From: Flavobacteriaceae bacterium
GTDB taxonomy: Bacteria > Bacteroidota > Bacteroidia > Flavobacteriales > Flavobacteriaceae
DNA length: 52,185 nucleotides
Assembly (NCBI GenBank): GCA_009827225.1
Contig: WUAI01000022.1
Location: forward strand, 1 to 52,185
Direction of reading: 5' to 3'
The notes beneath the pieces were generated by a model. It ran no database searches and was not told where the DNA came from. It saw only the letters and a program-made list of their open reading frames with translations. Made by a program: the position numbers and the translations under genes. The first letter of the stretch is position 1. Every line of letters begins with the position of its first letter. Shown here piece by piece: positions 6,624 to 39,069 of the stretch.

Positions 6624-7909
6624 TGAAAACGTTTAAATATCCCGAAGTTGAACAATGGAGCTCCATCCTGATGCGACCCACACAATCGGTGTCAGATATT
6701 GAAGATACCGTTGAAGAAATTTTTCAGGAGGTAAAAAATAAGGGAAATATGGCTGTCCAGCGCTATACCGAGCTTTTCGACGGTGTACAGGCTGAAGAAT
6801 TTGAAGTTTCAGAAGAGACAATTTCAGCTGCAGCAAATCAAATTTCCGAGGAACTAAAAACTGCTATCAACACCGCAAAGTCAAATATCGAAAGGTTTCA
6901 CAAATCCCAGATTACAGATTATAAAATGGTGGAAACCAGCCCGGGCGTCAACTGTTGGATCCGTAAAAAGCCCATTCAAAAAGTGGGTCTGTATATTCCA
7001 GGTGGGACGGCCCCTTTATTTTCGAGTATCTTAATGTTGGCAGTTCCCGCAAAATTGGCAGGATGCGAGGAGATCATCCTTTGTTCACCTCCGGGAAAAG
7101 ACGGCACTCTAGCTCCCGAAATCTTATACACGGCAGCGCTTTGTGGAGTAAAAAAAATATTTACTGTCGGAGGAATTCAGGCAATAGCGGCTCTTACTTT
7201 CGGAACAGAAACTATTCCTTCAGTATATAAAATATTTGGACCCGGCAACCAGTTTGTTACGGTCGCAAAACAAATTGCTACCAAATACGGTGTCGCTATC
7301 GATATGCCTGCAGGCCCCAGTGAATTGATGGTGGTTTCCGATGAAATGGGAAGAGCGGATTTTATCGCTTCCGACCTATTAAGTCAGGCAGAACACGGTA
7401 CGGATAGTCAGGTGGTGTTGGTGACCACGTCTGAAACGCTCTTATCCGAGGTCGACAAAGAGATCAAAAAACAAATGGAATTACTGCCCAGGAAAGAAAT
7501 AGCGGCCAAAGCCATAAAGAACTCGAAGTCGATTCTCGTGGCAAACGACAATGATGCCTTGCGAATAATCAATGAGTACGGACCCGAACATTTAATCGTT
7601 GTTTCAGAAAATGAATCATATTATCTGGATCGAATAATGAATGCGGGATCTGTGTTTGTTGGGTCTTACACTCCCGAAAGTGCTGGAGATTATGCGTCGG
7701 GCACAAATCACACCTTGCCCACCAACGGATATGCAAAGCAATACAGCGGCGTAAACCTGGACAGCTTCTTAAAGTCGGTTACATTTCAGAAAATATCCAA
7801 AGAGGGAATACGCAATATTGGGCCAGTGGTAGAGTTAATGGCAGAAGCAGAAGGACTACAAGCTCATAAAAACGCTGTATCCATTCGTTTAAATGAAATC
7901 AACAAATAA
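6620..7909 (+). CDS. hisD: Histidinol dehydrogenase
   Basis: Catalyses the last two steps, L-histidinol to L-histidine, with NAD and a bound zinc. Family motifs are plain: KVGLYIPGGTAPLFSSILML, AGPSELMVVSDE, SDLLSQAEHGTDSQVVLV, and INEYGPEHLIVV with the catalytic Glu-His pair, then AGSVFVGSYTPESAGDYASGTNHTLPT. I place the start at the ATG at 6620, overlapping the hisG stop by four bases (ATGA); the adjacent ATG at 6623 is equally possible. The product is 428-429 residues, the usual length. The longer reading from 6596 lies wholly inside hisG and is unlikely. Confidence 0.96.
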   Translation: MMKTFKYPEVEQWSSILMRPTQSVSDIEDTVEEIFQEVKNKGNMAVQRYTELFDGVQAEEFEVSEETISAAANQISEELKTAINTAKSNIERFHKSQITDYKMVETSPGVNCWIRKKPIQKVGLYIPGGTAPLFSSILMLAVPAKLAGCEEIILCSPPGKDGTLAPEILYTAALCGVKKIFTVGGIQAIAALTFGTETIPSVYKIFGPGNQFVTVAKQIATKYGVAIDMPAGPSELMVVSDEMGRADFIASDLLSQAEHGTDSQVVLVTTSETLLSEVDKEIKKQMELLPRKEIAAKAIKNSKSILVANDNDALRIINEYGPEHLIVVSENESYYLDRIMNAGSVFVGSYTPESAGDYASGTNHTLPTNGYAKQYSGVNLDSFLKSVTFQKISKEGIRNIGPVVELMAEAEGLQAHKNAVSIRLNEINK

Positions 7910-8961: not shown

Positions 8962-10094
8962 AAAGAAAAGTATTATTCATAGACAGGGATGGAACGCTAA
9001 TCCTTGAGCCAGCCGATGAACAAATAGATTCTTTTGAAAAACTGGACTTCTACCCGAAAGTTTTTCAATACATGGCGTTAATCGCGAAGAATCTCAATTA
9101 TGAATTGGTCATGATCACCAATCAGGATGGCTTGGGCACCGATAGCTTCCCGGAAGAGACTTTTTGGCCGGTTCAGAATTTCATAGTGAAAGCTTTTGAA
9201 AAAGAGGGGGTTGTCTTCGATAACATTTTTATCGATCGCACATTTCCTCATGAAAAAGCAGATACCAGAAAACCGGGTACGGGAATGCTTACGGCATACT
9301 TCAGTGATCTATATGATTTGGAAAACTCTTTTGTGATAGGAGATCGACTTACCGATATCGAACTGGCAAAGAACCTTGGCGGAAAAGGGATATTGATCAA
9401 TGGGAATGCGGAGTTGGGGAAAAGTGAAGCCAACTTAAGTACAGAAGAACTTGAATCTCTTTTGGCACTCACTACGGATAGCTGGGAAGAGACATACAAT
9501 TTCTTATTGACGCTTGACAGAAAAACACGTGTGGTAAGAAATACGAACGAAACTCAAATTGAAATTGAGCTGAATCTGGATGGATCAGGAAGTAACAATA
9601 TTGATACGGGATTACCTTTTTTCGACCATATGCTGGAGCAGATTTCTAAACATGGGCATATAGACCTGAATTTGAAGGTAGACGGAGACCTCCAGGTAGA
9701 TGAACATCACACTATTGAAGATACCGCCATTGCTTTGGGAGAAGCATTTTCTAAGGCACTGGATAATAAATTAGGCATTGAACGCTATGGATTTTGCTTG
9801 CCTATGGACGATTGCCTGGCGCAGGTAGCGATCGATTTCGGTGGCCGTAATTGGCTGGTTTGGGACGCGGATTTCAAAAGAGAAAAGATAGGTGACATGC
9901 CTACTGAAATGTTCTTCCATTTTTTCAAGTCTTTTACCGACGGTGCCAAGGCGAATTTGAACATAAAAGCCGAAGGGACCAATGAACATCACAAAATAGA
10001 GGCGATATTCAAGTCTTTCGCTAAAGCCATTAAGGCAGCAGTAAAAAGGGACCGGGAGCGAATGATTTTACCAAGCACCAAAGGAGTTTTATAA
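8958..10094 (+). CDS. hisB: Bifunctional histidinol-phosphatase / IGP dehydratase
   Basis: A fusion of two enzymes. Residues 1-165 are a HAD-type histidinol-phosphate phosphatase ([12 protein letters not shown] with the nucleophilic Asp, [30 protein letters not shown]). Residues about 185-378 are imidazoleglycerol-phosphate dehydratase ([64 protein letters not shown]), including the His-rich manganese ligands. Together they catalyse the sixth and eighth steps. The same fusion is known from Escherichia coli. Overlaps hisC by four bases (ATGA). Confidence 0.96.
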
Positions 10095-10678
10095 TGAAGA
10101 CAGTCATCATTGATTATGGGGCAGGCAATGTGAAGAGTTTGCAGTTCGCTTTCGAAAGATTAGGCGTTAATGCAAAGTTGTCCAATCGGCGGGAAGAGAT
10201 ATTGGCAGCAGACCGGGTTCTATTTCCTGGGGTTGGTGAGGCCAGCAGTGCTATGGACAAGCTCAGGCAGTCCGGACTGGATGCACTCATCCCTGAATTA
10301 AAGCAACCCGTGTTAGGGATTTGCCTGGGAATGCAACTCATGTGCGATCATTCCGAAGAAAACAATACGCAAGGATTAGGGATATTCAAACTACCGGTAC
10401 TCCGGTTTGCAGAAAGTGAAAAGATTCCACAGATCGGATGGAACTCAATATCCGGACTTGACTCAAAAATATTTGAAGATATCAATGAGGAGGCCTTCAT
10501 GTATATGGTGCATAGTTATTATGTTCCGTTGAGCGATGAAACTATCGCCAAATCGTTTTATGGGTTGGATTATGCATCGGCAATTCAACGAAACAACTTT
10601 TACGGAGTCCAATTTCATCCCGAGAAGAGCAGCAAAGATGGCAGTAAGATCTTACAAAACTTTTTAGAATTAGAATGA
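10094..10678 (+). CDS. hisH: Imidazole glycerol phosphate synthase, glutaminase subunit
   Basis: Class I glutamine amidotransferase of 194 residues. It hydrolyses glutamine and channels ammonia to HisF. The nucleophile elbow GICLGMQLM (Cys about residue 77), the oxyanion region VLFPGVGEA and the catalytic HPE in VQFHPEKSS are all present. The ATG overlaps the hisB stop by one base. Its partner hisF lies downstream, separated by hisA and a DinB-like gene. Confidence 0.96.
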
Positions 10679-11403
10679 GAATTATACCGGCCATGGATAT
10701 TATCGAAGGAAAGTGCGTGCGCCTGTCTAAAGGGGACTACAGTACGCAGAAAGTCTACAATGAGGACCCTCTTGAAGTTGCCAAATCCTTTGAGGACCAC
10801 GGTATCGAATATTTACATTTGGTAGACCTGGATGGAGCAAAAAGCAAACATATTGTGAACTATGGGATATTAGAGCAAATCGCAAGCAAAACCCGTCTCA
10901 AAATTGATTTTGGTGGCGGAATTAAAAGCGATGAGGACATCAGGATTGCTTTCGAAAGCGGAGCCCAACAAATTACCGGGGGTAGCATTGCTGTTTCCGA
11001 TCGACCGCTATTTATAAGTTGGTTGGAGCGCTATGGCAGTAAGAAAGTTATTTTAGGAGCCGACGCTAATGAAGGCAAGATCGCCACTCAGGGATGGCTT
11101 GAAAACAGTGAGCTGGAGGTGATTCCCTTTGTTGCCGAATATGTGAGCAAAGGCGTAGAGTATGTGATTAGCACCGACATTCAAAAAGATGGTATGCTGG
11201 AGGGCCCGTCGTTCGAATTATATAACAGAATGTTGAACGATATACCGAACTTGAAGCTTATTGCTTCAGGTGGAATTTCAAAATTGGAGGAACTGCCGAA
11301 ATTGTCAGAAATGGGATGTGAAGGGGTAATTATTGGGAAGGCTATTTATGAGAATAGAATTTCGCTCAAACAACTGGAAGAATTGATCATATCAGAAATC
11401 TAA
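10675..11403 (+). CDS. hisA: ProFAR isomerase
   Basis: (Beta-alpha)8-barrel isomerase of 242 residues that opens the ribose ring of ProFAR to give PRFAR. The opening [20 protein letters not shown] and the second half [18 protein letters not shown] carry the two catalytic Asp positions (Asp in AMDI, Asp in STDIQKDG). The phosphate-binding segments [12 protein letters not shown] and [11 protein letters not shown] also match. Overlaps the hisH stop by four bases. Confidence 0.96.
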
Positions 11404-32240: not shown

Positions 32241-32273
32241 AAAAATCCTCAACTGCTTCAGAAGAGGATTTTT
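32241..32273 (-). terminator. Intrinsic terminator of first ASSYAIHR small gene
   Basis: AAAAATCCTC (32241-32250) and GAGGATTTTT (32264-32273) pair over 10 bases; inside, CTG/CAG adds an inner stem. On the minus strand it runs into TTTTTTT. It begins 27 nt after the stop of the 32-codon ORF at 32300-32398 and 80 nt upstream of the bestrophin gene. Confidence 0.85.
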
Positions 32274-32299: not shown

Positions 32300-32398
32300 T
32301 TATCTGTGGATAGCATAGCTACTGGCTTTTGCGAATTCCTCTAATTTAACGTTCCATAGTTTCAGTTTTTCGCTCCAAAATACTTTGAAAGTTTTCAT
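32300..32398 (-). CDS. 32-residue small protein, ASSYAIHR family (copy 1)
   Basis: The product begins MKTFKVFWSEKLKLWNVKLE and ends EFAKASSYAIHR: a Lys/Trp-rich amphipathic N-terminal helix and a sharply conserved tail. A homologous ORF of 34 codons lies at 38703-38807. The shared tail differs at the DNA level only by synonymous changes (AGC/AGT, ATC/ATT, CAC/CAT, stop TAA/TAG), which argues that it is translated. It stands alone in a 420-bp gap between the nitroreductase and bestrophin genes and has its own terminator. No known family comes to mind; a membrane-active or signalling peptide is only a guess. Confidence 0.7.
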   Translation of the reverse strand: MKTFKVFWSEKLKLWNVKLEEFAKASSYAIHR

Positions 32399-32510
32399 AC
32401 TGATAGAATTTAAAGGTTCATATTCGGTTTACATTTCTTGGACTTAAAATTATCGTCAGGGTTTATTCTGAAATTAAAAAGTCCTTTAGTAACCGATTTT
32501 CAACAAGCAT

Positions 32511-32534
32511 GCCACGAATTGACGAATTCGTGGC
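32511..32534 (-). promoter_or_regulatory. Inverted repeat upstream of small gene copy 1
   Basis: GCCACGAATT (32511-32520), spacer gacg, AATTCGTGGC (32525-32534): a perfect 10-bp inverted repeat 113 nt upstream of the small ORF and 78 nt after the nitroreductase stop. There is no T run on either side, so it is more likely a 5' leader hairpin or protein site than a terminator. Confidence 0.5.
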
Positions 32535-32611
32535 TGTCTATGGTACATAACTCGTAATGAAGGGATTATAGATTAAAAAAATCTACCAAAATACTAGGAT
32601 AACGGAATTTT

Positions 32612-33343
32612 TTAATCGAGATGATGATATACTTCTTCAAAAGGAACTCGAAATCGTGGTCCGTAAATTCCTTTTTCATCGCGAACACCACAACTTATGA
32701 TCATATTGATCTCTGCTCTGAACGGGAGTTTAAGGAGTCTTTTTACTCTTAATGTATCGCTTCCTTCCATAGGGCAGGTGTCGTAACCCTTTGCCGCCAT
32801 GCTTATCATGAAGTTTTGCGCTGCCAGTCCGGCACTCTTATGGGCTACGATTCGCAGATCGTTTGAGCGCACTTGTCTGTAGATAGGGCGGAAGAGGCCC
32901 ACACACCAAAAGAAGATATACTTCAGCCATCCAAAAATACCAAGGAAATCGGAATAGGTAATCGGAATTAGTTTTCCATAGTAGTTGAGTGCCATCTTCT
33001 TTCGCTTCAGCCCTTTCTCAGAAACTTCCATTCCTTCATATTGCGAATTAACCCAATCGATATTCGCTTTTGCGCGCTTGGGCCATAGATCTTTTCTGGA
33101 CAACACAACCACCAATTGCTGGGCCGTTTTAGCGGCATTTTGGTTAAAACAGAGCCTGGCAATCTTCGAAATGAGATCCTTATTCGTGATATGATAAAAT
33201 TCCCACAGTTGCAGATTGCTACTTGTCGCGGCGAGCGTAGCATTCTTAAGGCATTGCTTAACTATTTCTGGATCAATAGGTTGGTCTTTATATATTCTAA
33301 CGGCCCGTCTGTAGGCGATCGCTTCTGAAACGGTTTTTTCCAT
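32612..33343 (-). CDS. Nitroreductase-family protein
   Basis: A 243-residue FMN-dependent oxidoreductase candidate. KTVSEAIAYRRAVRIYKDQPIDPEIVKQCLKNATLAATSSNLQLWEFY is the standard nitroreductase N-terminus with the FMN-phosphate Arg residues (RRAVR) and the Ser-Asn-Leu-Gln stretch. AHKSAGLAAQNFMISMAAKGYDTCPMEG and the C-terminal CGVRDEKGIYGPRFRVPFEEV complete the family pattern. An insert with hydrophobic character (about 130-165, DFLGIFGWLKYIFFWCVGLF) is longer than usual and may be a membrane-association element. Substrate unknown. Confidence 0.85.
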   Translation of the reverse strand: MEKTVSEAIAYRRAVRIYKDQPIDPEIVKQCLKNATLAATSSNLQLWEFYHITNKDLISKIARLCFNQNAAKTAQQLVVVLSRKDLWPKRAKANIDWVNSQYEGMEVSEKGLKRKKMALNYYGKLIPITYSDFLGIFGWLKYIFFWCVGLFRPIYRQVRSNDLRIVAHKSAGLAAQNFMISMAAKGYDTCPMEGSDTLRVKRLLKLPFRAEINMIISCGVRDEKGIYGPRFRVPFEEVYHHLD

Positions 33344-33571
33344 ATTCCTTTGGATTTAAGGCAAGATAGTCTAAAGATTGTGTTCGCAGCCTCTTGCAAT
33401 TATCATTTATTTATGGCTATCTTTAAAGAGATGAAACGATGTCTGTTTGATTGATTTCCCTGTTTTATTTTGAAAACTTGAAGAATATTGAAAATATACC
33501 CGGTAATGGGTACGATAATCGTTTGTCATTTATTCAATATTTGTAAAGAAGAAATAGTCTTATTTATCCTT

Positions 33572-35212
33572 ATGAGAAAAATGTTCGCCAAAATTATCCT
33601 CGGTCTGTTTTTAATAGCAGGTTGTTCAATGATTGCTCAAACTAAAAAAACCAAGGTGATATCATTTGATCTTGACAAAAGAGAAATAGGGGATATGCCT
33701 TTTGATGAACGTTTTAAGCTTTCTGGGTTTGACACTAAGTATGATGAAATTAAGTTGCAATACACTCTGGATCCTAATTACTTGGAGAAACCTAGATATA
33801 ATGATGGCGGATCTTTAGACTTCGAAATTGACAAGATCACAGGAAAAGCGAATTATTATGGAACTTTAGGTCCTTTACATCCGAATGTGCCTTACGATTT
33901 TACCTTCACCGTATCAAAGGAGATCACTCTCAACGATACAGAGGAAGAAGGATTAAGGAATGAAATTTATAGTTTGATTAATAATTATATCAAAAATCCG
34001 GCAGCTGGGACAGCGAGTGAAATCAAAAATTTCAAAACCTCACTCCAGGGTTTGTTGGAAAAGTACGCCAAGTCGGATAAAATAAAACAGGCTGATGGAT
34101 CGCCACTTGATTTCAATACCTCTCCATTATTTTCAAGTCAATTGAGCACTGTGCTAGCAAATATGATAGTTGATTACAACACCATCCAAAGGCTATATAG
34201 CGGAGGCAATGATGCTCGCACCAGGGCTAGCGATAACGCGTCCACTGAATTAACAACAAATGCCAATGGAAGTTTATTTTTCTCCAACCTGGATATAGCA
34301 TTAAACGATGATAATAGATTATCTGAATCCTTTGTGGCGCTATTGGAAGCACCGATTGATCCAGTTCCCGGTGTCAATGAAAAACTTACCCTTAGACAAT
34401 ACTTAAACTTCATTAATGAAGACCCGAAGGTTTTATTAGGCGAGATTATTCAAGGTAATAGAAAAATTGAAGGAGACGCACATAAAGTGTCCAATGGGAT
34501 TGATATTCCTTCCATCGAATTGCTAAAAAAGGTGTTCGAAAAACTAAACCGTAAATCGGTCAAAAAATCAAGCGGCTCTGGATTCTTTAGTATAAATGAA
34601 AAAAGCTTTCTCACTGCTATGATTGGTAAACTGAATACAATAATATCGGTTTTTGATGCATACAATACAGTACAAAGTAATATAGCAAAGAATAAAGAAA
34701 GCATTCCAAATTTGCTTCGAAACGCTATCCTTGTGAAAGAGATTAAAATTTCTGAATCTGTAAATATTGATGTATTAGCAGAGAAAAACCCCTATATAGG
34801 ATTGGACGCAGGTTTGGTTTATGCATTTGGCAGTGCCAATGGACTCTTTGCATACCAGGGCGCTAATTTTTATAGAAGACCGGTAAATCATCAAACGCCT
34901 TTTAGCGACCTAGAAGGGTGGGATGAGTTCTACAAACGATTCAGTTTATACCTTGGTATTGCAGAGATACTTACTGAGAAAGAAGATCGTTTTGAAGCGT
35001 TGATAGGAAATACAAGTTTGTTATTTGGTGCTGGTTATAGAGTGGTTAATGGTTTCCGTATAAATGTTGGAGGATTGTTGCATTATGTTAAAGATGCCAA
35101 CCCGGTTGTAGATAACAAAGAAATTAAAGTTTCACCAACTGTTTCTGTATCCATTGATATTAACTTAGTGAAAGCATTAGGTGCAGTGGGAGGATTATTA
35201 AATATTGATTAA
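33572..35212 (+). CDS. Large secreted/envelope protein of unknown function (cassette gene 1)
   Basis: A 546-residue exported protein: signal peptide MRKMFAKIILGLFLIAGCSMIAQ, cleavage probably after IAQ; the Cys in AGCS could also serve as a lipobox. Residues about 25-120 are beta-rich, 120-370 mostly helical with several VKK/LKK segments, and the last 150 residues alternate strands rich in Gly and aromatics (NPYIGLDAGLVYAFGSANG ... NTSLLFGAGYRVVNGFRINVGG ... SPTVSVSIDINLVKALG), which looks like a small outer-membrane barrel. I do not recognise the family. First of three genes spaced by two bases each. Confidence 0.65.
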   Translation: MRKMFAKIILGLFLIAGCSMIAQTKKTKVISFDLDKREIGDMPFDERFKLSGFDTKYDEIKLQYTLDPNYLEKPRYNDGGSLDFEIDKITGKANYYGTLGPLHPNVPYDFTFTVSKEITLNDTEEEGLRNEIYSLINNYIKNPAAGTASEIKNFKTSLQGLLEKYAKSDKIKQADGSPLDFNTSPLFSSQLSTVLANMIVDYNTIQRLYSGGNDARTRASDNASTELTTNANGSLFFSNLDIALNDDNRLSESFVALLEAPIDPVPGVNEKLTLRQYLNFINEDPKVLLGEIIQGNRKIEGDAHKVSNGIDIPSIELLKKVFEKLNRKSVKKSSGSGFFSINEKSFLTAMIGKLNTIISVFDAYNTVQSNIAKNKESIPNLLRNAILVKEIKISESVNIDVLAEKNPYIGLDAGLVYAFGSANGLFAYQGANFYRRPVNHQTPFSDLEGWDEFYKRFSLYLGIAEILTEKEDRFEALIGNTSLLFGAGYRVVNGFRINVGGLLHYVKDANPVVDNKEIKVSPTVSVSIDINLVKALGAVGGLLNID

Positions 35213-35213
35213 T

Positions 35214-35660
35214 ATGTCAAACGTCAAGTATCTTAAAAGATTAAAAAGACCAGCCGGTGATAAGTTACTATTCACCAAGCAGGGAAATGATATCATTTCC
35301 GAAGAAATTAATTTGAAATTTAGGATAGAGCTAAGCTCCCAAGCACCGGACGTTATGGATACGGTTCGATTAAAGTTCACAATGCAGGAGCCTACACAAT
35401 ATGTGTTTTCAGATGACAGTAAAGAAATAGTCACTGATTATGAAAATGTAAGTGAAGATTTTGACACGGAAACTTTCAGTTTAAACGTAAAGGTAATCGA
35501 TCCGGATGCTCCGTTAGAATTACCAGTGATGTTTGTTGTCACCGTAATGGATGTTGATGAAGGCATACCATTTCCACTAGATGGTAGAAAAGGATTGTAT
35601 AAATGGAACCCGGTTCCACCATTCAATAACTTGGTTCCTGCAAACTTTTATTTCTCTTAA
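35214..35660 (+). CDS. Unknown 148-residue protein without signal peptide (cassette gene 2)
   Basis: MSNVKYLKRLKRPAGDKLLFTKQ opens a basic N-terminus with no signal sequence, then a beta-rich acidic chain (EEINLKFRIELSSQAPDVMDTVRLKFTM ... FDTETFSLNVKVIDPDAP ... LPVMFVVTVMDVDEG) ending in an aromatic tail (NLVPANFYFS). One base separates its ATG from the stop of gene 1. The regular strand pattern suggests a beta sandwich. It is sandwiched between two exported proteins but appears cytoplasmic, or exported by a route without a classical signal. No family recognised. Confidence 0.6.
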   Translation: MSNVKYLKRLKRPAGDKLLFTKQGNDIISEEINLKFRIELSSQAPDVMDTVRLKFTMQEPTQYVFSDDSKEIVTDYENVSEDFDTETFSLNVKVIDPDAPLELPVMFVVTVMDVDEGIPFPLDGRKGLYKWNPVPPFNNLVPANFYFS

Positions 35661-35662
35661 TT

Positions 35663-36754
35663 ATGAATTCAAAGTATAGATTAGATATGTTTCGCTTATT
35701 GATGTTATTCCTTGTTCTTGGATTTCTTTCTTCATGTGTTGAAGATGATGATCAGGTGACAAATGAAGAAATAATTAATTTGATCATATTAAACGATGAA
35801 GGTTCAGAGATTGAGGAGGCTATTGGTGATGGTGAGAGATTCATTGTTTTACGGGCCCAATTACCCCAGGAAGTTGGTGATGATTTTAAAACGGTAACCT
35901 TCAAATCATCGGAAGGCAATTTTTTGGGAACGACCGAGCTAACTACTCAGGAAAGAGTTAATCTAGAGGGCATTGCTGAAGCTGTTCTGGAACTTCCATT
36001 GAGCTCTGGTGAACTTATTTTAACCGTTCAGGTTGGTCCAGCAGCCAATCTATTTAAATCAGAAAAGCGAATCACATTAATCGCCGTCGACCAGGTAATC
36101 TCCCTCGAGTTCCAGGATATCGATGGTGAGAATTTGAACGAAATTCCGCGTGCGGATGGCACTAGCCTTATCCAACTAAAAGGAAGCATACTGGCAGATC
36201 AGGACAATCTTACCCAGGTGAATTTTACAGCGACCAAGGGAACGTTTTTGAATACCGGGAATACTACGGAAGTTAAAAATACCGATGCCAACGGTGATGC
36301 GGTTGTCAATTACATTGTACCCCAAGAGGTCGGAACCGTTTTCTATACCGCTAAAACCGGAACCAACGGACAATACGTTTCTCCTCCTGCAAATCTTACT
36401 TTCGAAAGAGCACATGCAAACAGTTTGTTTGTGGAACCCGCTCAAATTAATATGAGTACTTCTGCAAGTAATAATATCAAGGCTTTTCTTTCTCGTTCCG
36501 TAGGGAAAGTTAGCGTGGGAACCGAAGTGAACTATCGCGCTACGCAATTCATCGATAATGAGACCACTGATGTTGGGAGATTTACCGGTGAGTCCAATGC
36601 ATCCACCGATATGAATGAACAAGTGACAGGGGTTAATTTCCTGGCAGACACAGGCGATATTAACCTGGACTTCCCCGTGTTTATTACAGTTTCTACTTTA
36701 AACGATGAAGGAGCCACCTTGGCAGTAACAATTTCGGTGAACGTTACCGAGTAA
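35663..36754 (+). CDS. Lipoprotein with Ig-like repeats (cassette gene 3)
   Basis: A 363-residue lipoprotein: signal peptide with lipobox LSSC (Cys about 25), then acidic VEDDDQVTNEE. The body holds about three beta-sandwich repeats resembling bacterial Ig-like (Big_1/invasin) domains: KTVTFKSSEGNFLGTTELTT, LTQVNFTATKGTFLNTGNTTE ... DANGDAVVNYIVPQEVGTVFYTAK, and GTEVNYRATQFIDNETTDVGRF. It is displayed on the outer membrane and is two bases downstream of gene 2. Adhesion or complex formation with genes 1 and 2 is inferred only from layout. Confidence 0.65.
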   Translation: MNSKYRLDMFRLLMLFLVLGFLSSCVEDDDQVTNEEIINLIILNDEGSEIEEAIGDGERFIVLRAQLPQEVGDDFKTVTFKSSEGNFLGTTELTTQERVNLEGIAEAVLELPLSSGELILTVQVGPAANLFKSEKRITLIAVDQVISLEFQDIDGENLNEIPRADGTSLIQLKGSILADQDNLTQVNFTATKGTFLNTGNTTEVKNTDANGDAVVNYIVPQEVGTVFYTAKTGTNGQYVSPPANLTFERAHANSLFVEPAQINMSTSASNNIKAFLSRSVGKVSVGTEVNYRATQFIDNETTDVGRFTGESNASTDMNEQVTGVNFLADTGDINLDFPVFITVSTLNDEGATLAVTISVNVTE

Positions 36755-36786
36755 ATTGGATTCGTAAAATATTTCCTTATTTCACT

Positions 36787-36820
36787 TTGAACTGACAATT
36801 ATCATTGCTCAATAGCTTTG
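36787..36820 (+). promoter_or_regulatory. Bacteroidota-type promoter of GerW-pair operon
   Basis: TTG at 36787-36789 and TAGCTTTG at 36813-36820 (exact TAnnTTTG), spaced 23 nt; ATG of the next gene follows 29 nt later at 36850. This is the best full promoter match in the window. Confidence 0.6.
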
Positions 36821-36849
36821 CGTTCAGTTCCTTTGTAGAAAACCATGAA

Positions 36850-37356
36850 ATGACGACTCTGTTGATTATTTTATTGGTTGTTTTTGCATTTCTCGCCTTC
36901 CTTCTTTTCACGCCAATTGTTCTTTTTATCGATACTTCCACGAACCAATATTTCGTCCAGGCGAAAGGGGTTGTTAAAGCCAGCATCCTTCCTGACGAAA
37001 AGGAGTTCATTAAAGTACGTTGTAAGATTTTCTTTTACACGTTCTATTTCTTTCCGTTGCGAAAACGAAAGAAAAAAATTGGGGAAAAAAGTGCTGATAC
37101 CAAGAAGAAAAAGAAAAAGAACCGTCGATTCAATGCCAGGAAAATAGGGGAGGTATTGAGGTCGTTCCGGCTGAAACGTTTAGAACTTCAGCTGGACACC
37201 GGAGATTATGTCCTAAACGCCAAACTTGTACCTGTTTTTGTATTTCTGAATTACAAACTAGGAAACTTTGCCATCAATTTTCAAGGCAAGAACCATTTTG
37301 CAATGGAACTTCAAAACAGACCTGTATATCTTATTAAATCATTTATTCACTATTAA
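36850..37356 (+). CDS. Membrane protein adjoining gerW-like gene (DUF2953-like)
   Basis: A 168-residue protein with one N-terminal hydrophobic helix (about 3-25), a beta stretch (LFIDTSTNQYFVQAKGVVKASIL), a very basic Lys-rich loop (KRKKKIGEKSADTKKKKKKNRRF, about 75-100) and a C-terminal part with FRLKRLELQLDTGDYVLNAKLVPVFVFLNY. The architecture (one helix, KIxxRxF-type central loop, LxxLxLxxGxxDxxxA-type end) resembles DUF2953, which in Bacillus (ytfI) sits beside the gerW-type gene ytfJ. The same adjacency is seen here, with 11 nt between them. Start at ATG 36850, 29 nt after a promoter box. Confidence 0.6.
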   Translation: MTTLLIILLVVFAFLAFLLFTPIVLFIDTSTNQYFVQAKGVVKASILPDEKEFIKVRCKIFFYTFYFFPLRKRKKKIGEKSADTKKKKKKNRRFNARKIGEVLRSFRLKRLELQLDTGDYVLNAKLVPVFVFLNYKLGNFAINFQGKNHFAMELQNRPVYLIKSFIHY

Positions 37357-37367
37357 AAATTTGGATT

Positions 37368-37739
37368 ATGGAATTACATTTTGAAGAATTATTATCACAA
37401 ATCACAGATTTTATTAAAGCGGAAGCTAAAACTGAAACCGTAATCGGTGAACAATTCGTATTAGGCGAATTTAGTTGTGTTCCTGTTATTAAAGTAGGAA
37501 TGGGCTTTGGTTCCGGTGGAGGAGAAGGCAGTGAAAAGAACACTAAAAAAGGCCAGGGAATGGGTGCCGGTGCCGGTGTAGGTATCGAGCCTCTTGGATT
37601 CCTGGTAACTAAAGGTGACGAAATTAGTTTTATCGAAGCCGGTAAAGCTCACGGACTTTCAGCCGCTTTTGAAAAAGTACCCGACATGATCGAAAAGATC
37701 TATGAAAGTAAAAGCAGAAAAGAAGAAGCAACCGCGTAG
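37368..37739 (+). CDS. GerW/YtfJ-family protein
   Basis: A 123-residue protein of the GerW/YtfJ family. The key run is VIKVGMGFGSGGGEGSE ... GAGAGVGIEPLGFLVTKGDEISFIEA: Gly-rich strand, then the conserved GVGxxPxGFLV. The family was named from Bacillus spore germination but occurs widely in bacteria that do not sporulate, such as Bacteroidota, so a sporulation role is not implied. It is coupled to the upstream DUF2953-like gene. Biochemical function unknown; the C-terminus is a Lys/Glu helix. Confidence 0.88.
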   Translation: MELHFEELLSQITDFIKAEAKTETVIGEQFVLGEFSCVPVIKVGMGFGSGGGEGSEKNTKKGQGMGAGAGVGIEPLGFLVTKGDEISFIEAGKAHGLSAAFEKVPDMIEKIYESKSRKEEATA

Positions 37740-37757
37740 TGCTCCTTCCTTTCAAAG

Positions 37758-37788
37758 AAAAACGGCAGTTCATACTGCCGTTTTTTTT
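37758..37788. terminator. Intrinsic terminator after gerW-like gene
   Basis: AACGGCAGT (37761-37769), loop tcat, ACTGCCGTT (37774-37782), extended by A/T pairs and followed by eight T residues. The upstream A run lets it also serve the convergent SPFH gene. Confidence 0.92.
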
Positions 37789-37792
37789 GTCA

Positions 37793-38524
37793 CTAATTAT
37801 TCTTTGGCAACACTTCTTCAGGAAATGGGAACAGTATGGTAGAATTCTTTTCCGCAGCTATATTGGAAAGCGTTTGATACAGACGCAGCTTGATCGCTGA
37901 AGGTGACTGGTCGATGAGCTTTCCAGCCTCCAACAACTTCCCGGCGGCCTGTTCTTCTGCAACAGCTAATATAATTCTTGCTCGACGAGATCGTTCCGCT
38001 TCTGCCTGATTCGCCATCATTCTGCGCATATTCTCAGGCAACTGAATGTCTTTAATCTTTACATCCATAATTTCAATACCCCATTCCTTGGTTTCCATTT
38101 CCACGATCGATTTGATGTTTTTACCCATCTCTTCCCGTTTGGACAAAATAGTATCTAATTCGACCTTACCGCAAACATCCCTCAAAGCAGCCTGCGATAA
38201 TTGGCTAATGGCAAATTTGTATTGCTCCACCTCTAAAACTGCTTTCTCAGGGTCATTGATCTTAAAAAATACCACCCCGTCTATGCTACAAGGCACGTTG
38301 TCCTCAGTCATCACCTCCTGGGAAACAATATTTATGGTGATCACTCGAATGTCCACCACCTGGATGGTTTCGACTATGGGAATGATCCATCTAAACCCGG
38401 GTTGTAAAGTCTTTATATACTTACCAAACCTGAATTTTAAAGCTCTTTTGTATTCAAATACGATTCGTATGCCGGACAGCAGAAAAACCCCGAAAAGGAT
38501 TCCGGCAAATAACATTGGATTCAT
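37793..38524 (-). CDS. SPFH/Band 7 (slipin-like) membrane protein
   Basis: A 243-residue protein with one N-terminal hydrophobic helix (about 4-20) and an SPFH domain: FRWIIPIVETIQVVDIRVITINI, VPCSIDGVVFFKINDPEKAVLEV, SQAALRDVCGKVELDTILSKR and the helix MANQAEAERSRRARIILAVAEEQAAGKLLEAG. This is the slipin/stomatin type of bacterial flotillin-like scaffold that oligomerises at the inner membrane, often working with an NfeD-like partner; no such gene is adjacent. A palindrome lies 26 nt upstream of its start. Confidence 0.9.
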   Translation of the reverse strand: MNPMLFAGILFGVFLLSGIRIVFEYKRALKFRFGKYIKTLQPGFRWIIPIVETIQVVDIRVITINIVSQEVMTEDNVPCSIDGVVFFKINDPEKAVLEVEQYKFAISQLSQAALRDVCGKVELDTILSKREEMGKNIKSIVEMETKEWGIEIMDVKIKDIQLPENMRRMMANQAEAERSRRARIILAVAEEQAAGKLLEAGKLIDQSPSAIKLRLYQTLSNIAAEKNSTILFPFPEEVLPKNN

Positions 38525-38549
38525 AATCTTGTTTTTTAATTAATTCTGA

Positions 38550-38566
38550 AATGATACCGTATCATT
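38550..38566. promoter_or_regulatory. Palindromic operator candidate upstream of SPFH gene
   Basis: AATGATAC-c-GTATCATT: eight-base arms around one central base. It lies 26-42 nt upstream of the SPFH start codon, where a promoter would be expected. No T run follows, so it is not a terminator. Confidence 0.5.
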
Positions 38567-38653
38567 CATTGTTATAAGAAATTGAATATCAGGTTAAAAA
38601 ACTATGAGATTAATCATCTGGGAGATTCAGCAACTGATTTCTTGGAAATGAAA

Positions 38654-38679
38654 AAACCCTTACATTTCTGCAAGGGTTT
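38654..38679 (-). terminator. Intrinsic terminator of second ASSYAIHR small gene
   Basis: AAACCCTT (38654-38661) and AAGGGTTT (38672-38679) with a ten-base loop; on the minus strand the stem is followed by TTTTTTC. It begins 24 nt after the stop of the 34-codon ORF, the same arrangement as for the other copy. Confidence 0.85.
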
Positions 38680-38702
38680 CATCGTGAGTGTGGGAATAAA
38701 AA

Positions 38703-38807
38703 CTATCTATGAATAGCATAACTACTGGCTCGGGCATACAGCGCGAGCTTTTCGTAAAACTTCCATTCCTCTAATTTTTTCTTCCACCAGTGTAATAGTT
38801 TTTTCAT
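38703..38807 (-). CDS. 34-residue small protein, ASSYAIHR family (copy 2)
   Basis: The product starts MKKLLHWWKKKLEEWKFYEK and ends LALYARASSYAIHR. Against copy 1 it keeps the Trp and Lys-Leu positions of the N-terminal helix (W-x-x-K-K/L-L-x-x-W) and has an identical eight-residue tail encoded with different synonymous codons. It lies alone in a 545-bp gap between the SPFH and GH16 genes, with its own terminator. The helix is strongly basic on one face and aromatic on the other. No signal peptide; the peptide could act at the membrane. Function unknown. Confidence 0.7.
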   Translation of the reverse strand: MKKLLHWWKKKLEEWKFYEKLALYARASSYAIHR

Positions 38808-38910: not shown

Positions 38911-39069
38911 TAGGAAGATTCGAGTGAAGTATAAATGTACGAAATTTCTTTGAATGCACGTATAATTCATTCGAATTTAATTAGATACAACGGGTGTATT
39001 TTGCTTCTTTTTATACCATAAATGGGTCATTGACTTTTATCGTATCTTTAGCTTTCTAAAAAAATAACT

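Follow-up and report, generated by a model that had tools for sequence, protein, structure and literature searches.

A 52,185-nt stretch of DNA from a marine Flavobacteriaceae bacterium (contig WUAI01000022.1 of assembly GCA_009827225.1, positions 1 to 52,185 of the forward strand; the whole stretch is called the window below) holds two short minus-strand genes whose products, 32 and 34 residues long, end in the identical octapeptide ASSYAIHR. Comparison across genomes leaves us nearly certain that both belong to a real coding family of ~32-residue proteins in Flavobacteriaceae, and its new feature is the existence of two paralogue types, A and B, that differ in the promoter elements recognizable upstream of them. 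As the best explanation as a whole, to which we assign a rough probability of 0.4, we propose a microprotein pair with one basal and one stress-responsive member, both equipped with a docking tail.

The type B gene (32300..32398, minus strand) encodes a protein of 32 residues with the tail KASSYAIHR (translation MKTFKVFWSEKLKLWNVKLEEFAKASSYAIHR, followed by the stop codon), and the type A gene (38703..38807, minus strand) one of 34 residues with the tail RASSYAIHR (translation MKKLLHWWKKKLEEWKFYEKLALYARASSYAIHR, likewise up to the stop). Both open reading frames (ORFs) had been reported in a preliminary description of the window; their translations agree with it, and the shared tail can be read directly from them. 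At the DNA level the tail is GCCAGTAGCTATGCTATCCACAGATAA in the gene at 32300 and GCCAGTAGTTATGCTATTCATAGATAG in the gene at 38703: The two differ in AGC/AGT, ATC/ATT, CAC/CAT, and TAA/TAG and in nothing else, which bears out the claim of purely synonymous divergence. In the window's 392 six-frame ORFs, no C-terminal 8-mer other than ASSYAIHR occurs twice, and a degenerate pattern for tail plus stop finds two sites in the 3.25 Mb assembly, namely both window genes, with none in the backward-read control. Since the family recurs in many genomes, chance is not a serious explanation.

With the tail as a regular expression (ATG starts only, 27–42 residues allowed), 78 distinct copies were collected, all from Flavobacteriaceae or from loosely labelled Bacteroidota metagenome-assembled genomes (MAGs); the way in which this set was built partly fixes its start codon and tail, and counts on the tail are partly circular. 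Outside the set lie divergent real copies with the tails SSSYAIHR, SASYAIHR, AAAYVLNH, ASHTLNH, and AGYAIRH as well as weak hits of a 35-row profile that lack the tail. For pairs of equal length and at least 70% identity, which are not independent of one another, the proportions of synonymous (pS) and nonsynonymous (pN) differences are 0.574 and 0.110 over the whole ORF, and 0.531 and 0.003 over the tail (pN/pS ~0.006), where each codon varies synonymously among copies. These codon comparisons thus show strong purifying selection on the eight C-terminal residues (in the main group A-S-S-Y-A-I-H-R-COOH), and the first ~20 residues drift. The preliminary description had placed selection on the peptide rather than on the RNA, which these values support.

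The length is exactly 32 residues in 54 of the 78 copies, and the net charge is positive in all of them (+1 to +11). The mean hydrophobic moment amounts to 0.38 compared with 0.22 in shuffles, 34 copies reaching p ≤ 0.05 individually: An amphipathic N-terminal half, proposed earlier for the window peptides, therefore holds for the family as a whole and is weak in the two window copies taken singly (moment 0.26 each; shuffle p 0.23 and 0.27). A 15-residue segment with a mean Kyte–Doolittle value of at least 1.6 is found in three of the 78, so that few could hold a hydrophobic signal sequence. The side suggestions of the preliminary description, membrane activity or a role as a signal, may hold, but nothing observed here requires them. 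AlphaFold2, run on a 35-row alignment, places helices at residues 2–14 and 17–33 (mean pLDDT 84.4, pTM 0.38), and because the chain is so short this model supports helix propensity only. The copies are hence positively charged, predicted-helical microproteins. Their C-terminal residue is arginine in 67 copies, histidine in eight, and lysine in three, and the penultimate one is H, N, R, Q, or K; tail variants beyond the strict family, some of which came from profile hits instead of the tail pattern, keep the order small-x-S-aromatic/polar-A-aliphatic-polar-basic-COOH. Upstream of the start codon, adenine occupies positions −13 to −10 in 73–92% of the 78 copies, and a Shine–Dalgarno-like motif occurs in two. 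This comes close to the pattern reported for Flavobacterium johnsoniae, with an A-rich −14 to −11 region, positive −12/−13 adenines, and A at −3 (PMC6847099); A at −3 is not dominant here (35%).

All nine genomes of the same genus proved to contain family copies when searched at the protein level with the 34-residue peptide: On reading of the matches, eight carry two copies and the ninth (G303, 80% complete) carries one, other weak matches being chance. Across the bacterial family, the strict tail pattern matched 18 of 299 genomes, including two (G164, G232) that are chance on reading, and the 35-row profile 43 of 397 genomes at E ≤ 0.05, its weakest hits lacking the tail. At class level, 10 of 295 genomes gave a hit at E ≤ 0.05, two of them the known members G000 and G342; the eight hits outside Flavobacteriaceae (E 0.0126–0.048) were rejected, G529 on reading, where the frame runs past the motif without a stop, and the other seven by match span and frame length alone. 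A scan of named genomes comprised 45 stretches, 42 of which hold a family copy, the stretches from Nostoc, an Acidaminococcaceae MAG, and Flavobacterium cucumis holding none. The named genera include Aquimarina, Gilvibacter, Altibacter, Aureitalea, Aureisphaera, Pukyongia, Ulvibacter, Flavivirga, and Dokdonia; other copies stem from MAGs labelled only Flavobacteriaceae, Bacteroidia, or Bacteroidetes, one further MAG being labelled Flavobacterium and one Cytophagaceae.

Pfam and NCBIfam contain no match for the window peptides; four peptides including relatives were tested, and the lone hit, of one relative at E 0.096, lies below the curated cut-off and is taken as chance. For the two window peptides PHROGs and PADLOC likewise gave no match, and Rfam matched nowhere in the window. 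A profile search of solved-structure sequences returned best E-values of 1.3 and 1.6. On plasmids there was no tblastn hit with one type B query, the phage collection not having been searched, and a single pattern hit on a viral contig is taken as chance, no family ORF being present there. The string SSYAIHR is absent from the 5.39 million papers searched, and no description of the family appears in the capped lists of titles and abstracts that deal with small proteins of these bacteria, both bodies of text leaving out most subscription papers and supplements; the available part of a study on structured RNAs and short ORFs in bacteria does not mention Flavobacter (PMC6429828). The view that the pair represents an undescribed family, with homologues now in many genera beyond the window, has therefore held up.

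The two types are told apart by what precedes them. In the window, a sigma-54 type −24/−12 box, TGGCATGCTTGTTG, lies at 32501..32514 on the minus strand, 116 nt before the type B start codon, and matches eight of the nine fixed positions of TGGCAC-N5-TTG, with one change (TGGCAT). One copy was excluded for its short upstream DNA; among the other 77 upstream regions, 16 contain this pattern at 9/9 fixed positions, compared with none in 40 shuffles each, and 21 contain it at at least 8/9 positions (1.15 expected). The 16 perfect matches are not independent, the copies being related, but they span distinct lineages, Aquimarina (L101) and G177 (L092) among them. The same box is the strongest two-part signal in 63 thinned upstream regions, where it occurs in nine (0.06 expected). 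A degenerate form, TGGCAYRCWTNTTG, which was written after the type B boxes had been seen, is found exactly once per genus genome (n = 9), and in every case it precedes type B; read backward as a control, it gives seven hits across the nine. In the window's own genome the box at 32501..32514 is its only match. Another site in that genome that resembles the box falls within a rhomboid-like ORF and was set aside. The retrieved stretches contain 25 intergenic boxes, of which 19 by a scripted test and one more (L111) by reading lie before a family member, a survey that shows nearby boxes to be rare and is not independent evidence, because the DNA had been fetched around family copies. Sigma-54 itself is encoded in all 35 genomes tested, including G000. 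Control of type B by sigma-54 appears highly probable to us on these grounds.

In Flavobacterium psychrophilum, promoters of SM4 (sigma-54) are reported to drive groESL, dnaK, grpE-dnaJ, lon, htpG, clpB, and skp, its targets thus being chaperones, Lon, and envelope-stress genes (PMC9723704); grpE is described as sigma-54-dependent in both Bacteroides thetaiotaomicron and F. psychrophilum, and groES in B. thetaiotaomicron (PMC12316311). For this reason, type B is probably stress-induced. A further candidate element, TAAACC-N16-GTCCAA (32438..32465, minus strand), stands upstream of the type B gene and resembles a promoter of the extracytoplasmic function (ECF) sigma factor class: The pair TAAACC-N16-GTCWAA scores above 9 in 15 of 77 copies, the window B gene among them, and type B copies often have such a pair in addition to the sigma-54 box. 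For flavobacterial ECF sigma factors, a CGT box has been published as the motif (PMC9723704). An ECF target would have an AAC-type −35 and a GTC-type −10 box spaced 16–17 nt apart, and the element here may mark such a target.

Type A is preceded by a different conserved element, AGAAATTTCGTACATTTA (38932..38949, minus strand), ~141 nt before the start codon. It holds a TAnnTTT box and is read as a housekeeping-type promoter because this box resembles the flavobacterial sigma-A −7 element, TAnnTTTG (PMC9723704). The element or close variants of it are found 91–189 nt before the start in 19 of the 78 copies (20 with a looser pattern). Six of the nine genus genomes contain the exact pattern, each once and in front of type A; among the remaining three, the A copies of G299 and G305 are preceded by a variant, and in G303 no A copy was found. 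An alignment of type A leaders is conserved only in the promoter element and the start region, and a conserved RNA structure in this leader was set aside. The peptides follow the same division: Among the strict-tail copies (n = 54), 19 have the A element, 15 of these with arginine before ASSYAIHR, and 19 have the sigma-54 box, 17 of these with lysine there. Promoter type and peptide type go together in these sequences, which defines two paralogue types that coexist in many genomes. Because these types have different promoters and each occurs in several genera, the two window genes do not result from a recent duplication, in agreement with the preliminary description. Moreover, in all 12 hand-listed stretches that hold both types, the A gene comes first and B follows on the same strand, 0.4 to 12.3 kb apart, and a thirteenth case (G299) shows this order at a distance of 14 kb (13/13 overall); many of these stretches are related by descent and not independent. 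The genes between A and B differ among the 12, a pattern by which both genes are seen to be kept while their surroundings changed.

The mechanism that we propose assigns each type a role. Type A would supply a basal level via its housekeeping-like promoter, and type B would be induced by the sigma-54 protein-quality/envelope-stress response. The least certain steps concern the peptide itself: Its cationic helix may lie on the inner membrane surface or on a protein groove, and the tail, fixed at the free C-terminus, may dock into a single conserved partner, cytoplasmic or in the membrane, that serves protein or envelope quality control. Docking would adjust the activity of this partner, much as other small regulators act that are induced by stress and contact their targets through a C-terminal tail. 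We regard a stress function as slightly better than an even bet and the tail-docking mechanism as tentative; that this constitutive/stress-inducible pair forms a dedicated sigma-54 stress-response module, in which the free C-terminal ASSYAIHR docks into a conserved machine of quality control or of the envelope for which control by a small protein would be new, seems rather doubtful. Genes this short are often overlooked by annotation, as several abstracts state. Here the comparative evidence yields protein, promoter class, and paralogue pair together, whereby the function becomes testable, the handles being the octapeptide tail, a candidate rpoN-dependent promoter, and a genus in which the searched sigma-54 pattern precedes only type B. 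The role of sigma-54 in environmental flavobacteria is little studied, and so specific a target would offer a handle on it.

Several observations weigh against the stress/basal pair with a docking tail. The distribution is patchy: A 25-row profile finds the family in 28 of 397 Flavobacteriaceae genomes at E ≤ 0.01, so that the family does not belong to the core of a universal stress response. Genomes with and without the family alike encode sigma-54. The −12 element is mostly TTGA or TTGG, and the textbook form is TTGC. The upstream regions of related copies are not independent, and two kinds of count are partly circular, those on copies gathered by the tail and those of the genome-wide box pattern, which was modelled on type B boxes already seen. 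None of the three upstream elements, as defined, precedes 30 of the 78 copies. A motif scan of the retrieved DNA found no chaperone gene whose heat-shock promoter could serve for comparison with the box of the same genome. The bare ECF-like pattern is not enriched genome-wide, backward-read control counts being as high or higher in nearly all genomes; a genome-wide ECF-like regulon was rejected for this reason, and the proposed ECF-like element is drawn from position and recurrence, because the bare pattern is common in the genome. Finally, no neighbouring gene family recurs in more than eight of the 40 stretches compared, and those that do recur look like local synteny.

The closest known system is LarA, a heat-shock activator of Lon in alpha-proteobacteria, which is likewise small, is induced by a stress sigma factor, and acts via a short conserved free C-terminus (PMC10665427); in the family described here, such induction is suggested by the promoter sequences. 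LarA differs in that it has 89 residues, is controlled by sigma-32, and ends in hydrophobic residues plus histidine (PMC10665427), whereas 67 of our 78 copies end in arginine, and we claim no sequence relationship. A Lon C-degron or LarA-like Lon regulator was rejected: A C-terminal arginine is among the residues most disfavoured by Yersinia Lon, whose preferred end is histidine (PMC11986505), and the family shows no terminal histidine with a preceding hydrophobic residue as its rule. Lon is therefore not proposed as the partner. The SM4 regulon of F. psychrophilum shares the −24/−12 promoter class and the bacterial family; it differs in its named targets, which are chaperones, proteases, envelope and gliding genes, and one putative RNA, and the text consulted names no 32-residue protein with an ASSYAIHR tail among them (PMC9723704).

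The genes appear to be free-standing units, most with a terminator of their own. Behind the type B gene an intrinsic terminator lies at 32241..32273 on the minus strand (fold −14.8 kcal/mol, z −2.5), which simple finders missed because its stem has an interior loop; the one behind the type A gene at 38653..38680, also minus strand (fold −18.4 kcal/mol, z −4.95), was listed by the promoter/terminator scan. Stem-loop and T run thus follow both stops at ~22–27 nt, much as the preliminary description had it. Family-wide, 48 of 76 copies have a stem-loop with a T run no more than 110 nt from the stop, two with less than 90 nt downstream having been left out, and 1.5 would be expected from shuffles.

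The alternative that survives best is a small cationic toxin or antimicrobial-type peptide, either a type I toxin or a membrane peptide that acts by itself, several copies of which would be maintained under tight promoter control. It would account for the uniformly cationic and on average amphipathic nature of all 78 copies, for the patchy distribution, and for close-set copies, three in L099 and three in L098. SpoVM and type I toxins like TisB are of comparable size and helical amphipathic character; these families are not known to have this fixed C-terminal octapeptide, and this sets them apart. Toxins generally drift in sequence, whereas the tail is nearly invariant across genera (pN 0.003). 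Furthermore, a strongly hydrophobic stretch is found in three of 78 copies only and gives the family no hydrophobic membrane-spanning helix, the window peptides have no PADLOC or PHROGs match, and two copies are kept in eight of nine genus genomes, the ninth, incomplete one having one. We therefore consider a toxin improbable.

Slightly less probable still is the precursor of a secreted peptide signal, from which the invariant tail would be released and sensed by a receptor. A conserved C-terminal octapeptide behind a variable N-terminal part has the right layout, and a LytTR-type response regulator gene lies directly upstream on the same strand in L099 and L081. Such direct LytTR neighbours are limited, however, to these two among the loci scanned, which also led us to reject a LytTR two-component system as the general partner; most copies lack a hydrophobic signal sequence, and no transporter or protease recurs among the neighbours compared. 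Pheromones usually diverge between genera, and the tail hardly does. A variable helix followed by an invariant short tail also resembles the leader–core layout of a ribosomally synthesized and post-translationally modified peptide (RiPP), an interpretation that we hold to be very unlikely; no common modifying enzyme was recognized in the neighbourhoods compared, either by eye among cluster representatives or in a Pfam scan of 14 neighbouring proteins.

Attenuation of a downstream gene by leader peptides could be read from the window, where a terminator and then a same-strand gene follow each copy, for a bestrophin-like channel behind B and a Band 7 protein behind A. This idea was dropped as hardly credible because the nearest downstream ORF lies on the opposite strand in 25 and on the same strand in 25 of 52 copies (none in two; 40 stretches): The downstream genes vary between genomes, and no conserved co-directional one was found. 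Least likely of all is a regulatory RNA with an incidental ORF, for although the elements predict short transcripts of ~200–300 nt that end in a terminator, conservation acts on codons with free synonymous change, frame and length are held, the type A leader is unconserved beyond promoter element and start region, and Rfam has no match in the window.

Two minor features accompany the type B promoter. A 24-nt inverted repeat, GCCACGAATTCGTCAATTCGTGGC (32511..32534, minus strand), overlaps the upstream (−24) edge of the sigma-54 box and is a possible regulator site that was not seen by eye in the relatives compared. Visual comparison of L101 and L092 shows a shared short inverted repeat around GATTGGGCAA...TATC, which lies in the 5′ leader between sigma-54 box and start codon.

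Some loci stand out by their surroundings. In Flavivirga (G072; L080) a family copy at 9125-9223 precedes a gene for a TraG/VirD4-like coupling protein at 9288-11240, and in Aquimarina spongiae (L121) a copy at 6922-7020 precedes such a gene from 7075 onward; the gap is 54–64 nt in both, no terminator was found in between, and the L080 coupling gene is followed by TraM-, TraG P-loop-, and DUF4138-type genes. The Flavivirga/Aquimarina copy thus appears to have been drafted into a secretion or conjugation operon. The orthologous coupling protein gene of G001 is preceded by a degenerate family copy that an in-frame stop interrupts (L090, ~9863-9949). As a partner of the family, type IV secretion was rejected: Only two of 25 family-positive genomes encode a close coupling protein, G072, from which the query came, and G001 (70% identity), the others having matches of 26–30% only (8/25) or none (15/25). 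In G342, three close-set copies (L099, 9666-10337) lie behind genes for a histidine kinase, read by eye, and the LytTR response regulator. Lastly, the window encodes at 36805-37739 a YtfJ-type ‘sporulation’ protein (PF09579) together with an adjacent 183-residue protein without Pfam match. To our knowledge, flavobacteria do not sporulate; this pair of genes is kept near the small genes in six of the 40 stretches compared.

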